This document shows positions 23,337 through 33,593 of a stretch of 34,145 bases of DNA, piece by piece. The notes below the pieces were generated by a model. It was not told where the DNA came from. It saw only the letters and a program-made list of their open reading frames with translations, and ran no database searches. Source of the stretch: Acholeplasmataceae bacterium (GTDB taxonomy: Bacteria; Bacillota_I; Bacilli_A; Acholeplasmatales; Acholeplasmataceae); NCBI GenBank assembly GCA_021736335.1, contig JAIPGC010000008.1, positions 1-34,145 on the forward strand. The letters run 5' to 3'. The number at the start of each line of letters is the position of its first letter. Within the stretch, counting starts at the first letter, position 1. Made by a program: the position numbers and the translations under genes.

Positions 23337-24737
23337 ATGCCTAAAATCGGACTTAGAAATATTAAAACAGCGATAGCTTTGGCAATTGTAATGCTTATCA
23401 ATTTATTACTGACCATCATTAATCCTGAATTTGCTAATTCCTGGTATTCACCATTTTTTGCAGGGATTGCTGCTGCATACTCGATGCAGAGCAAGCAATC
23501 ATCTAGTTTTAAATTAGCTCAAATACGTTCATTTGGATCTTTGATAGGTGGAACTACAGGTATGATTCTCATTTTGCTATATGAGGCATTTTTAAGTGAA
23601 ATCCTCATTGCATCATATGGTGAAATTTGGAATTTGGCAATATTATATGCAATCGTTGGTTTACTTGTCATTCCCCTGATATACTTTTTAGTAACAACTC
23701 AAAAAACTGATTTTATCTTTGTTGCTCTTCTAACTTATTTGAGTGTGACAATTAGCTCTAGAAATTTTTTACCAGTCACTGTATTTGCAGTTAATAGAAT
23801 GGCATCAACAATCATTGGTGTATTGATTACACTATTTGTAAATCATTTTGATCTAAGATTTCATAAGAATAAAAACATATTGTTTGTCACAGGACTTGAT
23901 GGAACCATTTTAAATCACCAAAAACAATTGACGAGTTTCACAAAGTACAAACTAAATCAGTTAATTGAAAAAGGAGCCAATATTACCATTTCAACAACGA
24001 GAACCCCAGCATCACTGACACAAATATTAAAAGATGTTGAATTCACTTTACCGTTAATGATTATGAATGGATCAGTTGTATTTGATTTAAACAATGAATC
24101 TTATCATCATATTAAGACCATATCCAAACATGCACGACAAGGACTAGATACATTGTTAGAAAAAGAAGATAAGAATGCATTTGTCTATAATATCACTGAG
24201 GGTATGCTATCCATATATCACCACCCATTTAAAAATGAGGGTGAGAAGAAATTCTTTGATGAAAGAAAACACGATTATTTTCAAAATCATATCAAAGGAA
24301 AACTTTCTCAGGACGATGATGCAGTCTTTTATATCATCATTGATAGAATTGATGAAATCAAAAGAATGGAAAGCAAAATCAAAAACTCCACATTTTATAA
24401 AGATATAACCATCAATATCTATCCTTATGATTTATTACCACGCTATTACTTCCTAAAAATAAACAGTATTAATGCATCAAAAGCTATTGCACTCAAAGAG
24501 TTTTTATCCACCCATCAAGAAGACACAGTCATTTCTGTGGGCAGCAAATCATTTGATATTCCGATGATGAAATCATCTGATTTTGCTTATGCTACTGCAA
24601 GTGCTGATGAAGAAGTCAAAGCAATAGCTCATCATGTTTTTGAGGTTGATGATCCGGATGTCATCATGAAAGAGTTTCAAAAATTGTTCTATCATAAGAA
24701 TGTAAAACAATATTTAGAAAAGAAAAAAGTCGTTTAG
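23337..24737 (+). CDS. Fusion of N-terminal ArAE/FUSC-like membrane domain and C-terminal Cof-type HAD domain with altered catalytic motifs
   Basis: N-terminal multi-TM region (IKTAIALAIVMLINLLLTIINPEFANSWYSPFFAGIAAAYSMQSKQSSSFKLAQIRSFGSLIGGTTGMILI) then NILFVTGLDGTILNHQKQL and VISVGSKSFDIPMMKSSDFAYAT. Confidence 0.85.
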   Translation: MPKIGLRNIKTAIALAIVMLINLLLTIINPEFANSWYSPFFAGIAAAYSMQSKQSSSFKLAQIRSFGSLIGGTTGMILILLYEAFLSEILIASYGEIWNLAILYAIVGLLVIPLIYFLVTTQKTDFIFVALLTYLSVTISSRNFLPVTVFAVNRMASTIIGVLITLFVNHFDLRFHKNKNILFVTGLDGTILNHQKQLTSFTKYKLNQLIEKGANITISTTRTPASLTQILKDVEFTLPLMIMNGSVVFDLNNESYHHIKTISKHARQGLDTLLEKEDKNAFVYNITEGMLSIYHHPFKNEGEKKFFDERKHDYFQNHIKGKLSQDDDAVFYIIIDRIDEIKRMESKIKNSTFYKDITINIYPYDLLPRYYFLKINSINASKAIALKEFLSTHQEDTVISVGSKSFDIPMMKSSDFAYATASADEEVKAIAHHVFEVDDPDVIMKEFQKLFYHKNVKQYLEKKKVV

Positions 24738-26941: not shown

Positions 26942-27532
26942 ATGACTGATCTAATCATAGCAAGCCAAAATGTCCATAAGATTAGAGAACTAAGTGCTAT
27001 TTTTAATCACAAAGGCATCCATTTGATTTCCTTAAAAGAGTTAAATGACAACGATGATGTGATTGAAGATGGTCATTCTTTTTTGGAAAATGCAATAATA
27101 AAGGCAAGCTACTTCGCAAAAAAATATCAAAAGCCTGTCATTGCTGATGATTCAGGATTAGTAATTCATGCACTAGATGGCAGACCTGGTATCTATTCTG
27201 CAAGGTATTCTGGTGGTGATGACCATCAAAATAACCTCAAAGTCTTGAAAGAGATGCAGGATAAAGAAAACAGAGATGCTTACTTCGTATCTGTGATTGT
27301 TTTATGTTATCCTAATGGTGTATACAAAAGCTATGAGGGAAAAGTATTTGGAATAATTGCTATAGAAGAAAAAGGGAAAAATGGATTTGGTTATGATTCC
27401 ATCTTTTACTATCCTGATTTAGATAAAAATTTTGCAGAGCTAGATTCAGAAATAAAAAACCAAATTTCACATCGTGCTAATGCATTGAAACAGCTTAAGG
27501 AGGACATCGATGAAATTATTAATTACAAGTGA
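26942..27532 (+). CDS. rdgB: XTP/dITP diphosphatase (RdgB/HAM1 family)
   Basis: IIASQNVHKIRELSAIF, VIADDSGLVIHALDGRPGIYSARYSG, GKNGFGYDSIFYYPDLDKNFAEL, ISHRANAL. Confidence 0.96.
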   Translation: MTDLIIASQNVHKIRELSAIFNHKGIHLISLKELNDNDDVIEDGHSFLENAIIKASYFAKKYQKPVIADDSGLVIHALDGRPGIYSARYSGGDDHQNNLKVLKEMQDKENRDAYFVSVIVLCYPNGVYKSYEGKVFGIIAIEEKGKNGFGYDSIFYYPDLDKNFAELDSEIKNQISHRANALKQLKEDIDEIINYK

Positions 27533-27953
27533 TGTTCATGGTGATGAAAAAAGACTTCTTGAAGTCATTAAAAAACATAAAGATGTTGACTATCATCTGA
27601 ATGCTGGAGATATGTGTCTTGATCCAAAGATTTGGGAAAAACATCACATCATTGCTGTAAAAGGCAACAACGATTTTGGCAGTGACCTACCTTATATGCG
27701 GTTATTAGATTTCGATGGATTACATATTCTTTTAACTCATGGTCACATTGAACATGTGAAATTCGGAATGGATAGAATTAGATTAAAAGCTAAAGTTAAT
27801 GAAGTACAAATTGTTATATTTGGCCATACTCATGAAAGATATTTAATGTCTGATGAAGGTATATTATTCATCAATCCAGGTGCATTAGGTGGGTATCATA
27901 GAAGCTATGCAATTTATGAGAATCAACAGGTTACATTTTATAATAGCGATTGA
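27510..27953 (+). CDS. YfcE/MJ0936-family metallophosphoesterase (YsnB-like)
   Basis: MKLLITSDVHGDEKRLLEVIKKH, NAGD, VKGNNDFG, LTHGHI, VIFGHTHERYL, INPGALGG; overlaps rdgB. Confidence 0.92.
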   Translation: MKLLITSDVHGDEKRLLEVIKKHKDVDYHLNAGDMCLDPKIWEKHHIIAVKGNNDFGSDLPYMRLLDFDGLHILLTHGHIEHVKFGMDRIRLKAKVNEVQIVIFGHTHERYLMSDEGILFINPGALGGYHRSYAIYENQQVTFYNSD

Positions 27954-27978
27954 AAAACAGTTAAAAAAGGATGGAATT

Positions 27979-30966
27979 ATGCGATTAAGCGATGTCTTAA
28001 AATTACCAAAACAACCTCATAGTCTATCAATTATCAAGGATTTTCTAGAACAACCGCTGAGTCATTTAGACTATCAAGCGGCTTTTAGCTATTACTTTGA
28101 AATTGCTATTGAACTTCAATTATATAACTTGGTATTTGAAGAAGGAGACAAGGTTTTAAAAGAAATTGAAGTGCAAGCTGATTCTCCATATTATGAAAAA
28201 ATACTGAGAGAGCTTATACAGGCTTCACTTCATTTAGAGCATTTTGAAAAAGCTAAACAGTACATTGATCAAAGAAGACAGGTTCTTCCGATTCTGAAAC
28301 AATATTTAGCTGTCCTAGATGAAATTGATTATAAGAAGGCATTAGGATTACCTTATCTAGAAGACTTGATGAAGGTATTAAAAGATGTGATTCCAGATCC
28401 AGTAAAGATTTACTGTCTTGAGGAAATGTTTAAGATTTATCGAGATGATCATCAATATGAAATGGCTTTAAATAGCCTTTATGAGCTATATGAGTTTGAT
28501 CTTGAGAATAAGTATTTTATTGAAGAACTCAAACTTTTAGTTCAACTCAAGAAGTATGATGATGTCATCATGAAATCGATGAAAGCATTAAGACTTAACA
28601 GGGAAAATGCTTTAGTGGTTTTAGTTTTACTTGAAGTATATATTGTAAAAGAAGATTACCATAAAGCATCAACTCTTGAAGCTGAATATGAAGAATTAAT
28701 TGACAAGCAAGATGATATATATAAGAAGAAAGCCTATGAGCTCATCATTGTGTTATATAAAAAAATGGACAATAAGCCATCGCTTGATTTATATCAAAAG
28801 AAAAATAAGAGTCTTTTACGTGTATTAGATAAAAAGACTAAAGTTGTTGAGGAAGAAAAACCAGAAATTGTTGTCATTGAGAAAGCTGCGGCTAAAACTG
28901 TTAAACATGGTAATATTCTTGAACATTTGGAGTTCAGCCATGATTTGATTCAATTTTCACATTTGATCGATGACAAGCTTATGCTAAGAGATTACTTACG
29001 CGTCTTTTTCATGCATGTTGATTCGTTTATAAAAACCAAAGAGTTTATCATCTATCTTCAAGGTGAATCACCTAATCTGTTTCATTATAAAAAAGAGCGT
29101 CTTTACGATAAGACCATTATTGAAAGCTTTGTTGAAGAAACAGTTGTTGGTCGAGTATTAAATACTGGTGAAGAAATCTTCGAAGAAACAAAAACAATGA
29201 GATGGCCAAAAAATATCATCACCCAAAAGGATTATGAAGAAGATATTAAATTTATTTATACTTACCCACTAGGTGATGAGGGAACTTTCTCAATTTATTT
29301 AGATGAAGAAATCAATGATCCCGGAAAGTATTATGATTTATTTAAATTAATGAGTGCCATTTTATATGCTCATATTTTAGATGAAAAGAAATTGAGTAAG
29401 CTAAAGAAGGAAAATAGATTTTACAGCAATGTTCTTAATAGTCCAATTCTTGCTTATAGAGAGCATAGCGAACATCGTTCAACCTATAATGATGCAGCAC
29501 AAGCATTGTTTCATATTGATAAGCATCACCATATGGAATTATTTTTAAGAGACGTTTCCTATGAGCATGTACACATATATAAGGATACAATTCAAAAATT
29601 ACTTAACAAACCTGGTGAGATTAAAGAAATTTATTACCGGTACCAAGAGAAGCACATCCTAGAAAAGCTATATAGTTTAAAAATAGGAGATGAACATATT
29701 ATTATGAGTATATTCTTTGACCAGACAAAAGAAGTTGATCAAGCAAAGGAACTTGTCGATAAAGCAACGCTTGACCATGAGACAGGATTATCCAATGATT
29801 ATGCATTATCTTTAGAAATTGAGGATTTGCTTAAAGATAAGGCAAGTCTTATCTTGATTGAACTCGATCAGAATCTCAAACACATCTATGGTAGTGAGAA
29901 AATGGGTCAGTATTTTAAGGAGTTTGCACAGCATACAAAGAAGTTCTTTAATGATGGAAGAACTTACCGATATGACTTTAATCAGATTTTTGTATGTATT
30001 CCTTATAATGACATTAGAAGTGTGACTAAAACTGTCAAGGACTATATCAAATACTTAGAGATTTATGAGTCTAAGATTCTCAAATTTGAAAAATTCAATG
30101 TCAATATGGGTATCTTAAGATATCCAGTGGTAACTGTTGAAAAACAAATGGATAAGATTTTAAGATATTTAGATATTGCCTTAGAGAAGGCAAAAAGAGA
30201 ACGCGAAGAAAAATATGAGTTTTTTGTTTTTCGTGATTATGAGGATGAGTTATTTGAACAACAGGTTATTGATCATCTTAATGTTGCTATTGAGACACAA
30301 AACTTAGGTTTAATCTTTAATCAAATTACAGATATCAAGAAAAATAGAGTTTGGCAGTATGAAAGCGAACTTGTCATGTTTAACTTAGCAATCGACAATA
30401 AATATTTACTTACGATTGCAAAGAAGCGAAACAGATTGGCTGATTTGGAAAGATTCCATATCAAAAAAGTTTGTGAATTTTTGGTTGAATTGGAAAAACA
30501 AACTGAAAGACTGATCAAACTTACGATTCCAATCTCTAGAGAAACATTTTTAGATCCAACATTCAATCCTTATGTTCTAGGATTATTTAAACAATATGGT
30601 ATTCCTTATGAATTTGTGAGATTGAAATGTGATATGGAACTTAGAGCCAATCATTATGCGAATCAGATTCAGGAATTAATTGATCACGGTATTTCTTTAG
30701 ATACAACTTCTTTGGAAATGGCATTATCTTATCCTTTCAATGCTTTGCATGTGGATTTAAAGAAAGAAAATATCAAATGGAACAGTTATCTTCACAAGAT
30801 GAAAGAACTTCTTGAGGGGTTTCAAATGGCATTAGTTATCCGTGGTGTAAAGACTAAGGATCAAAAAGAAGCATTGGAACGGCTAGGTGTGATGTACATG
30901 GAAGGTAGCATTTATAAACAGTTGCCAGCACCTACATTGATTCAAAAGATTAAGGAGTCATTATGA
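27979..30966 (+). CDS. Multidomain cytosolic protein: TPR-like N-terminus, GAF/PAS-like middle, degenerate GGDEF-like and EAL-like C-terminal regions
   Basis: ATG at 27979 preceded by AAAGGATGG. GGDEF-type entry DHETGLSNDYAL but RYDFNQIFVCIP in place of RxGGDEF; EAL-type NLGLIFNQITDIKKNRVWQYESEL..., ALHVDLKKENIKW, RGVKTKDQKEALERLGVMYMEGSIYKQLPAP. Confidence 0.8.
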   Translation: MRLSDVLKLPKQPHSLSIIKDFLEQPLSHLDYQAAFSYYFEIAIELQLYNLVFEEGDKVLKEIEVQADSPYYEKILRELIQASLHLEHFEKAKQYIDQRRQVLPILKQYLAVLDEIDYKKALGLPYLEDLMKVLKDVIPDPVKIYCLEEMFKIYRDDHQYEMALNSLYELYEFDLENKYFIEELKLLVQLKKYDDVIMKSMKALRLNRENALVVLVLLEVYIVKEDYHKASTLEAEYEELIDKQDDIYKKKAYELIIVLYKKMDNKPSLDLYQKKNKSLLRVLDKKTKVVEEEKPEIVVIEKAAAKTVKHGNILEHLEFSHDLIQFSHLIDDKLMLRDYLRVFFMHVDSFIKTKEFIIYLQGESPNLFHYKKERLYDKTIIESFVEETVVGRVLNTGEEIFEETKTMRWPKNIITQKDYEEDIKFIYTYPLGDEGTFSIYLDEEINDPGKYYDLFKLMSAILYAHILDEKKLSKLKKENRFYSNVLNSPILAYREHSEHRSTYNDAAQALFHIDKHHHMELFLRDVSYEHVHIYKDTIQKLLNKPGEIKEIYYRYQEKHILEKLYSLKIGDEHIIMSIFFDQTKEVDQAKELVDKATLDHETGLSNDYALSLEIEDLLKDKASLILIELDQNLKHIYGSEKMGQYFKEFAQHTKKFFNDGRTYRYDFNQIFVCIPYNDIRSVTKTVKDYIKYLEIYESKILKFEKFNVNMGILRYPVVTVEKQMDKILRYLDIALEKAKREREEKYEFFVFRDYEDELFEQQVIDHLNVAIETQNLGLIFNQITDIKKNRVWQYESELVMFNLAIDNKYLLTIAKKRNRLADLERFHIKKVCEFLVELEKQTERLIKLTIPISRETFLDPTFNPYVLGLFKQYGIPYEFVRLKCDMELRANHYANQIQELIDHGISLDTTSLEMALSYPFNALHVDLKKENIKWNSYLHKMKELLEGFQMALVIRGVKTKDQKEALERLGVMYMEGSIYKQLPAPTLIQKIKESL

Positions 30967-32027
30967 GTTTAGCGCAGTTGAAGCAATATGTTTCAGCAAG
31001 TGAAAAAGATGAGAAAAGCAGTAACGGATATCGCGCGACTGCAGCTTTTATGATGCTGGAAAATGTTGATTTGATGATTGAACGGTACTCAAAAGAAAAG
31101 CAAACAGAACAAGGAGCTATCCTTCTTGATGTTTTTGGATTACTTCAAGGTTTTTTTGTAGCAATAGACGCCTTATATGATTTAGCAATAGGATTAACTC
31201 AGTACAAATATCATATTAATGTCAATTCCAATGAAACGCTTCGTGAACTCAAGTTCATTAGAAATGATATCGTTGGACATCCTACACACCGGACTTATGA
31301 AGATGGTGGTACAGGTTTTTCTATTCTATCACCTGAAAATTTCTCAAAAGATGGCATATCCTATAAAACGTATATCTATGAGAAAAATAAATTTGAAGTG
31401 ATAACTAAGGACGTCAAATTCGCGCCATTAATTGATGCTTATCATATCGAAAAAGATAAAATCTTATCGGATATTTATGCATTTTTACAAAGAGAAGAAA
31501 CAAAAACAAATATTCCCGAAAAGATTTATGCTTTGTTTGAAACAGTAAACGATGAAGTGCTAGAAGAAATTAGACAAATGTTCATCAGTGAATATCAACT
31601 TGAGGAAGATTCAAATCACCGGTTTTTATGGCGTCTAAAATTAGTTGAGGTTTTGATTCATTGGGAGGAAACAGATCCAGAACTTCAAGAACTCATTTTA
31701 TACATGAGCAAAATCCAATCAGCTAAGCTATATGCGATAGCTATGGATTTAGAAAAAAGAAAATATAAGGAACTATTTTTTAGCATCCCTCCCATTTTGA
31801 CAGCCTTTTATAAGTTTGTTAGAAAGCATGAAAAAATAGCATATCCTATACTTAAAAATTTAAATGATCCTAAACATCCATATTTTCAAAGAGATTTGAT
31901 TGCTTTAATGTCTATGAACCCCAACAAGCAAGTTATGAAATTATTAAGATTGTTCAAAGACACAAAGGATGAATCAAAAATCTATCTCATAGGTTCTATG
32001 ATGAAGGCATACCGTCCAAGAAATTAG
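30963..32027 (+). CDS. Unknown helical protein with HEPN-like RNDIVGH motif and C-terminal helical (HEAT-like) region
   Basis: Start overlaps the upstream stop by 4 nt; helical N-terminus with LRELKFIRNDIVGHPTHRTYEDGG (R-x5-H). Confidence 0.75.
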   Translation: MSLAQLKQYVSASEKDEKSSNGYRATAAFMMLENVDLMIERYSKEKQTEQGAILLDVFGLLQGFFVAIDALYDLAIGLTQYKYHINVNSNETLRELKFIRNDIVGHPTHRTYEDGGTGFSILSPENFSKDGISYKTYIYEKNKFEVITKDVKFAPLIDAYHIEKDKILSDIYAFLQREETKTNIPEKIYALFETVNDEVLEEIRQMFISEYQLEEDSNHRFLWRLKLVEVLIHWEETDPELQELILYMSKIQSAKLYAIAMDLEKRKYKELFFSIPPILTAFYKFVRKHEKIAYPILKNLNDPKHPYFQRDLIALMSMNPNKQVMKLLRLFKDTKDESKIYLIGSMMKAYRPRN

Positions 32028-32180: not shown

Positions 32181-33593
32181 ATGGACAATATTTTCACATA
32201 CTATAGAAAACCGAATATCATATCAGAACTAGATCCTGATTTTGTACCTTCAATATTAGGGCACTTAGGATTTATTGATGCTGTAAAGAAATCCAATCAC
32301 AGTGTTGATGTGAAAATATCAATTGAACGAACACAAGGTCAAAAATCAACCTACCAAACAATTGTGTTTGATGATAGTCAAAATCAATATGAAGCAAATT
32401 GCTTTTATATAGAGAGATTAATCAAATCTTTACTATGGATCAAAGGTGGATGGAAAATCATTTATGGTGGCCCTCTTTCTTTAGGAAATTATATTAAAGA
32501 AACTTTCTCAAAAAATGGTCTACGAGCATTTGATGTTGCATTTATGAGTCGCATCTATGAAAAAGAATTCATTGTTGAGATTAAAGATATCAAAGATGTT
32601 CCAATGACAGAAGAATCTACAAAATCATTAGGAAGACATTTAAATGGATGTCGCATTGGATTTGATGCAGGTGGATCTGATAGAAAAGTATCAGCAGTCA
32701 TTGATGGTATAGCTATCTATAGTGAAGAAGTTGTTTGGCACCCCAAATTAGAAAGCGATCCTGCATATCATTATCAAGGCATTTTGGAGTCCATGAAAAA
32801 CGCAGCTTCAAAAATGCCAAGAGTTGATGGTATTGGTGTCAGCGCTGCAGGGGTTTATATTGATAATAAAGCCATGGCAGCATCATTATTTATTAAAGTT
32901 CCAATCGATTTATTTAATCAGCAGGTTAAGAATATATTCATCAACGCAGCCAAAGAAATAGGCGATGTACCTATTGAAGTCGCTAACGATGGTGATGTCA
33001 CAGCACTCGCTGGAGCGATGAGCCTAGAAGCAAATCAAGTCTTAGGGATTGCTATGGGAACCTCTGAAGCTGCTGGATATGTAGATAAAGAAGGCAACAT
33101 AACAGGTTGGTTGAATGAATTAGCTTTTGTTCCTGCAGATTTCAATAAAGATGCAATGATTGATGAGTGGTCATTAGATTATGGTTGCGGGGTTAAATAT
33201 TTTTCACAAGATGCAGTCATCAAATTAGCTCCACGTGCAGGTATTAATCTAGATCAAAATCTATCACCTGCGGATCAACTTAAAATCGTTCAAAATCTCG
33301 TTGAACAAAATGATGAGAAAGCGATACGTATCTTTGATACGATAGGGATCTATTTGGGTTATAATATTGCCTATTATGCTGAATTTTATGATATCAAACA
33401 TGTCTTAATTTTGGGGCGAGTCACATCTGGAAAAGGTGGAGATGCCATCTTGAGATATGCAACTAAAGTTTTAGAAACTGAATTTAAAGAATTAGCTCAA
33501 AAAATAAAAATATCACTACCGGATGAGAAAAATAAACGTGTTGGTCAATCGATTGCTGCAGCAAGTCTTCCGGAAGTTAAATCAATTAAGTAA
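32181..33593 (+). CDS. Divergent ROK-family (sugar kinase fold) protein with ~150-aa N-terminal extension
   Basis: CRIGFDAGGSDRKVSAVIDG phosphate-1-like motif, VDGIGVSAAG, VEVANDGDVTALAGA, LGIAMGTSEAAGYVDKEGNITGWLNELA. Confidence 0.82.
   Translation: MDNIFTYYRKPNIISELDPDFVPSILGHLGFIDAVKKSNHSVDVKISIERTQGQKSTYQTIVFDDSQNQYEANCFYIERLIKSLLWIKGGWKIIYGGPLSLGNYIKETFSKNGLRAFDVAFMSRIYEKEFIVEIKDIKDVPMTEESTKSLGRHLNGCRIGFDAGGSDRKVSAVIDGIAIYSEEVVWHPKLESDPAYHYQGILESMKNAASKMPRVDGIGVSAAGVYIDNKAMAASLFIKVPIDLFNQQVKNIFINAAKEIGDVPIEVANDGDVTALAGAMSLEANQVLGIAMGTSEAAGYVDKEGNITGWLNELAFVPADFNKDAMIDEWSLDYGCGVKYFSQDAVIKLAPRAGINLDQNLSPADQLKIVQNLVEQNDEKAIRIFDTIGIYLGYNIAYYAEFYDIKHVLILGRVTSGKGGDAILRYATKVLETEFKELAQKIKISLPDEKNKRVGQSIAAASLPEVKSIK

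Follow-up and report, generated by a model that had tools for sequence, protein, structure and literature searches.

A degenerate GGDEF-EAL protein conserved across the Acholeplasmatales and retained in genomes without a detectable diguanylate cyclase

DosP, the oxygen-sensing PAS-GGDEF-EAL phosphodiesterase of Escherichia coli, combines a haem PAS domain with an intact catalytic EAL domain. Proteins in which the GGDEF and/or EAL domain is degenerate, such as CsrD, CdgI, RflP and BluF of E. coli, are commonly interpreted as receptors for c-di-GMP or as regulators acting within a c-di-GMP network, and those of E. coli have been studied for their protein-protein contacts (PMC5635695). LapD and FimX also carry inactive GGDEF-EAL tandems; FimX contacts c-di-GMP via five of ten key positions, including Arg479 (PMC3527489). 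For A. laidlawii, a member of the Acholeplasmatales, a 2008 paper noted 14 GGDEF/EAL proteins, which it counted as carrying domains of diguanylate cyclases and/or phosphodiesterases (PMC2408644). A 2024 paper stated that among mollicutes none except A. laidlawii is known to use c-di-GMP, and read an EAL-like domain as c-di-GMP use in a deep-sea coral symbiont (PMC11535214).

Here we analyze a 995-aa protein with degenerate GGDEF and EAL domains encoded in the window, by which we mean the whole 34,145-nt stretch of Acholeplasmataceae DNA under study (Table 1). Orthologues of 995-999 aa begin at the same residue, which backs the start and the coordinates given for this open reading frame in an earlier sequence-only reading; orthologues do not share the upstream GTG at 27889. 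The peptides quoted in that reading are all present in the protein.

Table 1. Features of the 995-aa gene and its neighbours (positions in the window)
Feature	Position	Strand	Residues	Basis or remark
RdgB/HAM1 XTP/dITP diphosphatase, conserved upstream neighbour	26942..27532	+		Pfam, synteny
YfcE-type phosphoesterase, conserved upstream neighbour	27510..27953	+		Pfam, synteny
995-aa TPR-GAF-PAS-pseudoGGDEF-pseudoEAL protein	27979..30966	+	1-995	ORF, Pfam, profile, AlphaFold model, Foldseek
TPR-type alpha-solenoid	27979..28836	+	1-286	all-helical in model; TPR profile match
Flexible linker	28837..28914	+	287-312	pLDDT <50 over 287-307
GAF-like alpha/beta domain	28915..29331	+	~313-451	model secondary structure only
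Long signalling helix and PAS-like domain	29332..29724	+	~452-582	model; Foldseek
Pseudo-GGDEF domain	29770..30228	+	~598-750	profile, Pfam in relatives, Foldseek
GGDEF signature position, DFNQI	29974..29988	+	666-670	alignment
NDIR motif, just past the GGDEF hairpin	30007..30018	+	677-680	D and R invariant in 51/51 tabulated Acholeplasmatales members
Pseudo-EAL domain	30274..30963	+	766-995	Pfam 1.2e-11; lowest dN among domains
EAL motif position, E-S-E	30361..30369	+	795-797	Glu kept in 32/32 close members
354-aa partner gene	30963..32027	+		motif RNDIVGHP at its residues 100-107; ATGA overlap with stop of the 995-aa gene (30963-30966)

The similarity to GGDEF and EAL domains proposed in the sequence-only reading exceeds chance. 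Pfam EAL matches residues 766-979 with 44.9 bits (curated cut-off 31.3), and the same domain is detected in 26 of the 28 members of the family. GGDEF falls below the Pfam threshold in the protein's own sequence, and PF00990 was matched in 12 of the 28 members, at best with 2.3e-9. With a profile of the 28-member family, residues 593-990 align without a break to both domains, GGDEF and EAL, of the PDB entry for E. coli DosP (E ~5e-7). An AlphaFold2 model has a mean pLDDT of 86.9 and a pTM of 0.38, a low value, so that its single domains are reliable and their arrangement is not. Both folds are present in the model: a Foldseek search against the PDB returned DosP at 7e-21, the PAS-GGDEF-EAL protein PA0861 at 6e-20 and both MorA and LapD at 2e-13 or better, with PA0575 also matched. 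By fold and homology, the family belongs to the GGDEF superfamily and the protein to the EAL superfamily. DosP is the best match by profile and by fold, with the same domain order, and its own GGDEF motif is also deviant, reading EGTQF in the aligned chain. Unlike DosP, the 995-aa protein has a very probably dead EAL domain and, ahead of the tandem, a TPR solenoid and a GAF-like domain.

The front end had been described as TPR-, GAF- and PAS-like, and each part of this description held at its own level. By its N-terminal solenoid the protein is a TPR protein: the N-terminal family profile matches consensus TPR proteins with E=3e-8, and Pfam TPR matches in relatives reach 7e-9 (TPR_19, in a distant member). 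The putative GAF and PAS domains are seen at the fold level only. The GAF-like region has no Pfam match, and the PAS-like region is suggested by the model and by the PAS-GGDEF-EAL fold matches, with Foldseek alignments to PA0861 spanning 568 columns; the boundaries of both domains are model-based.

A GGDEF-type motif is intact in 0 of 93 aligned family members. In the window protein the signature is DFNQI, and Glu (E628) stands in place of the metal Asp, so that the GG(D/E)EF A-site and the metal Asp of an active diguanylate cyclase are both missing. In the EAL domain the substitutions are YQP-Q to N, N to P, E to K, DD-D2 to T, K to H and Q to E; two later Glu residues are R and K, and the Arg of EALxR is V799, at a position that varies among members. 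Among the tested metal and catalytic residues of an active EAL phosphodiesterase only E795 (the EAL Glu) and D908 (the first Asp of DDFG) are retained. The earlier statement that the EAL and DDFG catalytic residues are missing is therefore right for most positions and wrong for these two. It is very improbable that the protein is still an active cyclase or phosphodiesterase working through unusual residues: E795 and D908 are kept in close members, but other residues stand in place of the GGDEF motif and at most of the remaining catalytic positions, and within the core group these replacements are conserved in turn (P851 in 31/32, K883 in 28/32, H924 and R955 each in 30/32). Among the 93 sequences there was no member with intact sites that could represent the active ancestor; the DDFG string of one sequence (L156), at residue 19, is not part of the EAL domain.

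In every group of the family examined, the catalytic residues and most of those for ligand binding are missing, and both active sites were lost long ago. Judged from these alignments, the GGDEF and EAL domains are very probably homologous to their active counterparts but inactive, as the sequence-only reading had supposed, and a sensor or scaffold is a sensible reading of such a protein. Given the retained E795 and D908, weak ligand binding might still occur in close relatives. Both domains being degenerate, the protein resembles an inactive regulator of the CsrD type. It differs from CsrD, CdgI, RflP and BluF in that their host has a full c-di-GMP network and their N-terminal domains are of other kinds.

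The sequence-only reading had also held that c-di-GMP proteins are unusual in such reduced, wall-less bacteria. This premise was mistaken. In addition to the 995-aa gene, 12 strong GGDEF matches and one intact EAL domain (in a GGDEF-EAL protein on C4) occur in the genome of the window, GGDEF was detected in 92 of 101 relatives, and the A. laidlawii set comes from a host in the same order (PMC2408644). With 12 GGDEF matches and an intact EAL domain in the same genome, the idea of a solitary relic in a bacterium that lacks c-di-GMP signalling was rejected. A PilZ protein as output receptor was rejected, being found in only 1 of 101 relatives. The 995-aa family itself resembles neither of the enzymes as which the A. 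laidlawii proteins were counted.

The presence of these other GGDEF and EAL domains speaks for a receptor of the LapD/FimX type, that is, an enzyme-dead protein whose EAL-like domain binds c-di-GMP from other cyclases. The architecture class is the same, and the EAL Glu and one Asp are kept in the family core. LapD and FimX, however, keep c-di-GMP-binding residues, whereas in the 995-aa family these are mostly replaced: the equivalent of FimX Arg479 is the variable V799, and YQP-Q, DD-D2, K and AEG-E are N, T, H and R. As the family also survives where no cyclase is detectable, we consider this reading unlikely.

The 995-aa protein was found in 91 of the 101 relatives, mostly in single copy (in the single-contig genome G055 the orthologue lies at C1:894933-897929), and is absent from genus g7, whose members have genomes of 0.6-0.9 Mb and are probably phytoplasmas. 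The N-terminal profile reaches family f19 of the same class, where members are of similar length and more degenerate. With regard to INDEPENDENCE from c-di-GMP, at least 16 genomes keep the 995-aa protein without a canonical cyclase or an intact EAL domain, as searched with PF00990 and PF00563. Eight of these are at least 90% complete (G023, G024, G037, G066, G073, G077, G091 and G094); the others are G027, G036, G040, G049, G054, G058, G063 and G080. The GGDEF/EAL matches that remain in the 16 genomes are the 995-aa protein and weak or partial ones, mostly to a second pseudo-GGDEF protein, with one weak or partial match in addition in G036 and in G063. The same search yields up to 30 GGDEFs in other relatives and is thus sensitive; most genomes are draft assemblies, and the absence of a cyclase rests on the sensitivity of PF00990 and PF00563 and on completeness. 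In these lineages the 995-aa protein would be unable to sense home-made c-di-GMP, unless a cyclase is unassembled or too divergent for the Pfam model. The repurposed role suggested in the sequence-only reading gains support from this retention.

The second pseudo-GGDEF protein (~525 aa, TM-PAS-PAS-pseudoGGDEF, with the motif GSTFA, GLVFA or GLDFA; L104-L111, L116-L125) occurs order-wide in 87 of 101 relatives, mostly once, and in nearly all of the cyclase-free genomes. In the draft genome to which the window belongs, no such protein was found. Most of the weak GGDEF matches in cyclase-poor genomes belong to this family and were rejected as real cyclases; GdpP was likewise discarded as their identity, as the members scanned have no DHH domain. 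One relative, G059, has an extra short TM protein in which GGDEF- and EAL-like domains are both weak or degenerate (L115 350-1705).

Compared with a 91% identical orthologue (L012), the 995-aa gene has a dN of 0.066 with synonymous sites near saturation. Where computable, dN/dS of the domains is 0.03-0.05, and the pseudo-EAL domain is the slowest (dN 0.022). The gene is under strong purifying selection and is not decaying. A leftover without function might be suspected from the lost active sites and from broken ORFs in three relatives (G007, G008 and G074), but the gene is full-length in nearly all relatives in several families, dN is low against saturated synonymous sites with the dead EAL domain the slowest, and the operon is conserved. 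Contradicted by both selection and conservation, decay is the least credible of the explanations and can be regarded as extremely improbable. In the single-contig genome G074 (L101 5950-9032), the homologues of the 995-aa and 354-aa genes are each split into two ORFs, which are pseudogenes or sequencing errors.

In most Acholeplasmataceae and f5 relatives the gene order is rdgB, yfcE, a choline-kinase-like gene, the 995-aa gene and the 354-aa gene. The choline/ethanolamine-kinase-like gene (~288 aa) lies between yfcE and the 995-aa gene in most relatives, including the closest (L012); the window is cleanly without it (27951-27978), and no copy turned up elsewhere when the draft genome was searched. 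The 354-aa gene is directly downstream of the 995-aa gene in families f1, f2 and f5, and its homologue is again next in four f19 loci, where the upstream genes are rel-dtd and not rdgB-yfcE (by Pfam in L160, by equal gene sizes in the others). Since the two genes adjoin despite the changed f19 surroundings, the pair travels together. The partner is not universal: no such gene could be recognised in f3, in g9 or in some of the f5 genomes. We know of no such partner gene for CsrD and the other degenerate GGDEF/EAL proteins of E. coli. Elsewhere in the window, a 466-aa protein (23337-24737) combines a membrane region of the ArAE/FUSC type with a HAD phosphatase of the Cof type, and a 470-aa protein (32181-33593) has weak ROK similarity (Pfam E 2e-4), its first 158 residues being without assignment.

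All 61 partner homologues of at least 250 aa have an RND[IV]VGHP-type motif, which conforms to Rx4-6H, the motif of HEPN RNases. No HEPN profile or fold match was found for the 354-aa protein with Pfam, PADLOC, PDB sequence or Foldseek searches, and neither Pfam nor the PDB offers a convincing relative of the family. An assignment to a known HEPN or defence protein was rejected, the motif having no profile or fold support, and the possible resemblance to HEPN is a lead only.

As a variant of the sensor reading, the pseudo-GGDEF domain might sense another nucleotide (GTP, ppGpp, c-di-AMP or, in view of the neighbouring rdgB, ITP/XTP) and gate the module. Degenerate GGDEF domains that bind GTP as allosteric sensors are known, and GTP complexes of PA0575 and PA0861 are among the fold matches. 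A new conserved signature, with ND-R (N677, D678, R680) and RYP, surrounds the lost active site, where R714 is also conserved, and the gene lies downstream of rel-dtd in f19 and of rdgB in the Acholeplasmatales. However, the domain has lost both its metal Asp and its GGDEF loop, and the rel-dtd and rdgB-yfcE adjacencies may be mere housekeeping synteny. This variant is possible, though we hold it only tentatively.

We consider it likely that the 995-aa protein is a GGDEF-EAL pseudoenzyme of ancient origin, without catalytic activity, that acts as a c-di-GMP-independent sensor or scaffold through a partner. A signal would be received by the GAF and PAS domains, perhaps together with the altered pocket of the pseudo-GGDEF domain. 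The pseudo-GGDEF/EAL module would relay the signal through a change of conformation or through dimerisation, as known degenerate GGDEF-EAL proteins do, and the TPR solenoid and/or the surface of the pseudo-EAL domain would bind and regulate the 354-aa protein. In a narrower version, the two would form a c-di-GMP-free signalling pair in which the 995-aa sensor holds in check a translationally coupled, divergent HEPN-like RNase, the RND[IV]VGHP protein, and which was retained in the Acholeplasmatales after c-di-GMP synthesis was lost; this we regard as decidedly unlikely.

Degenerate GGDEF/EAL proteins with protein contacts are a kind already known from E. coli; new here are the family itself, the partner gene that accompanies it and the family's persistence in genomes where no cyclase is detected. 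No active member of the 995-aa family was found, yet it is strongly constrained across the order and present where no cyclase is detectable, outside the c-di-GMP setting in which such proteins are usually explained. The family offers a natural setting in which to test what the GGDEF-EAL fold does independently of c-di-GMP. It also serves as a warning that an EAL-like domain in a mollicute is not by itself evidence of c-di-GMP use (compare PMC11535214).
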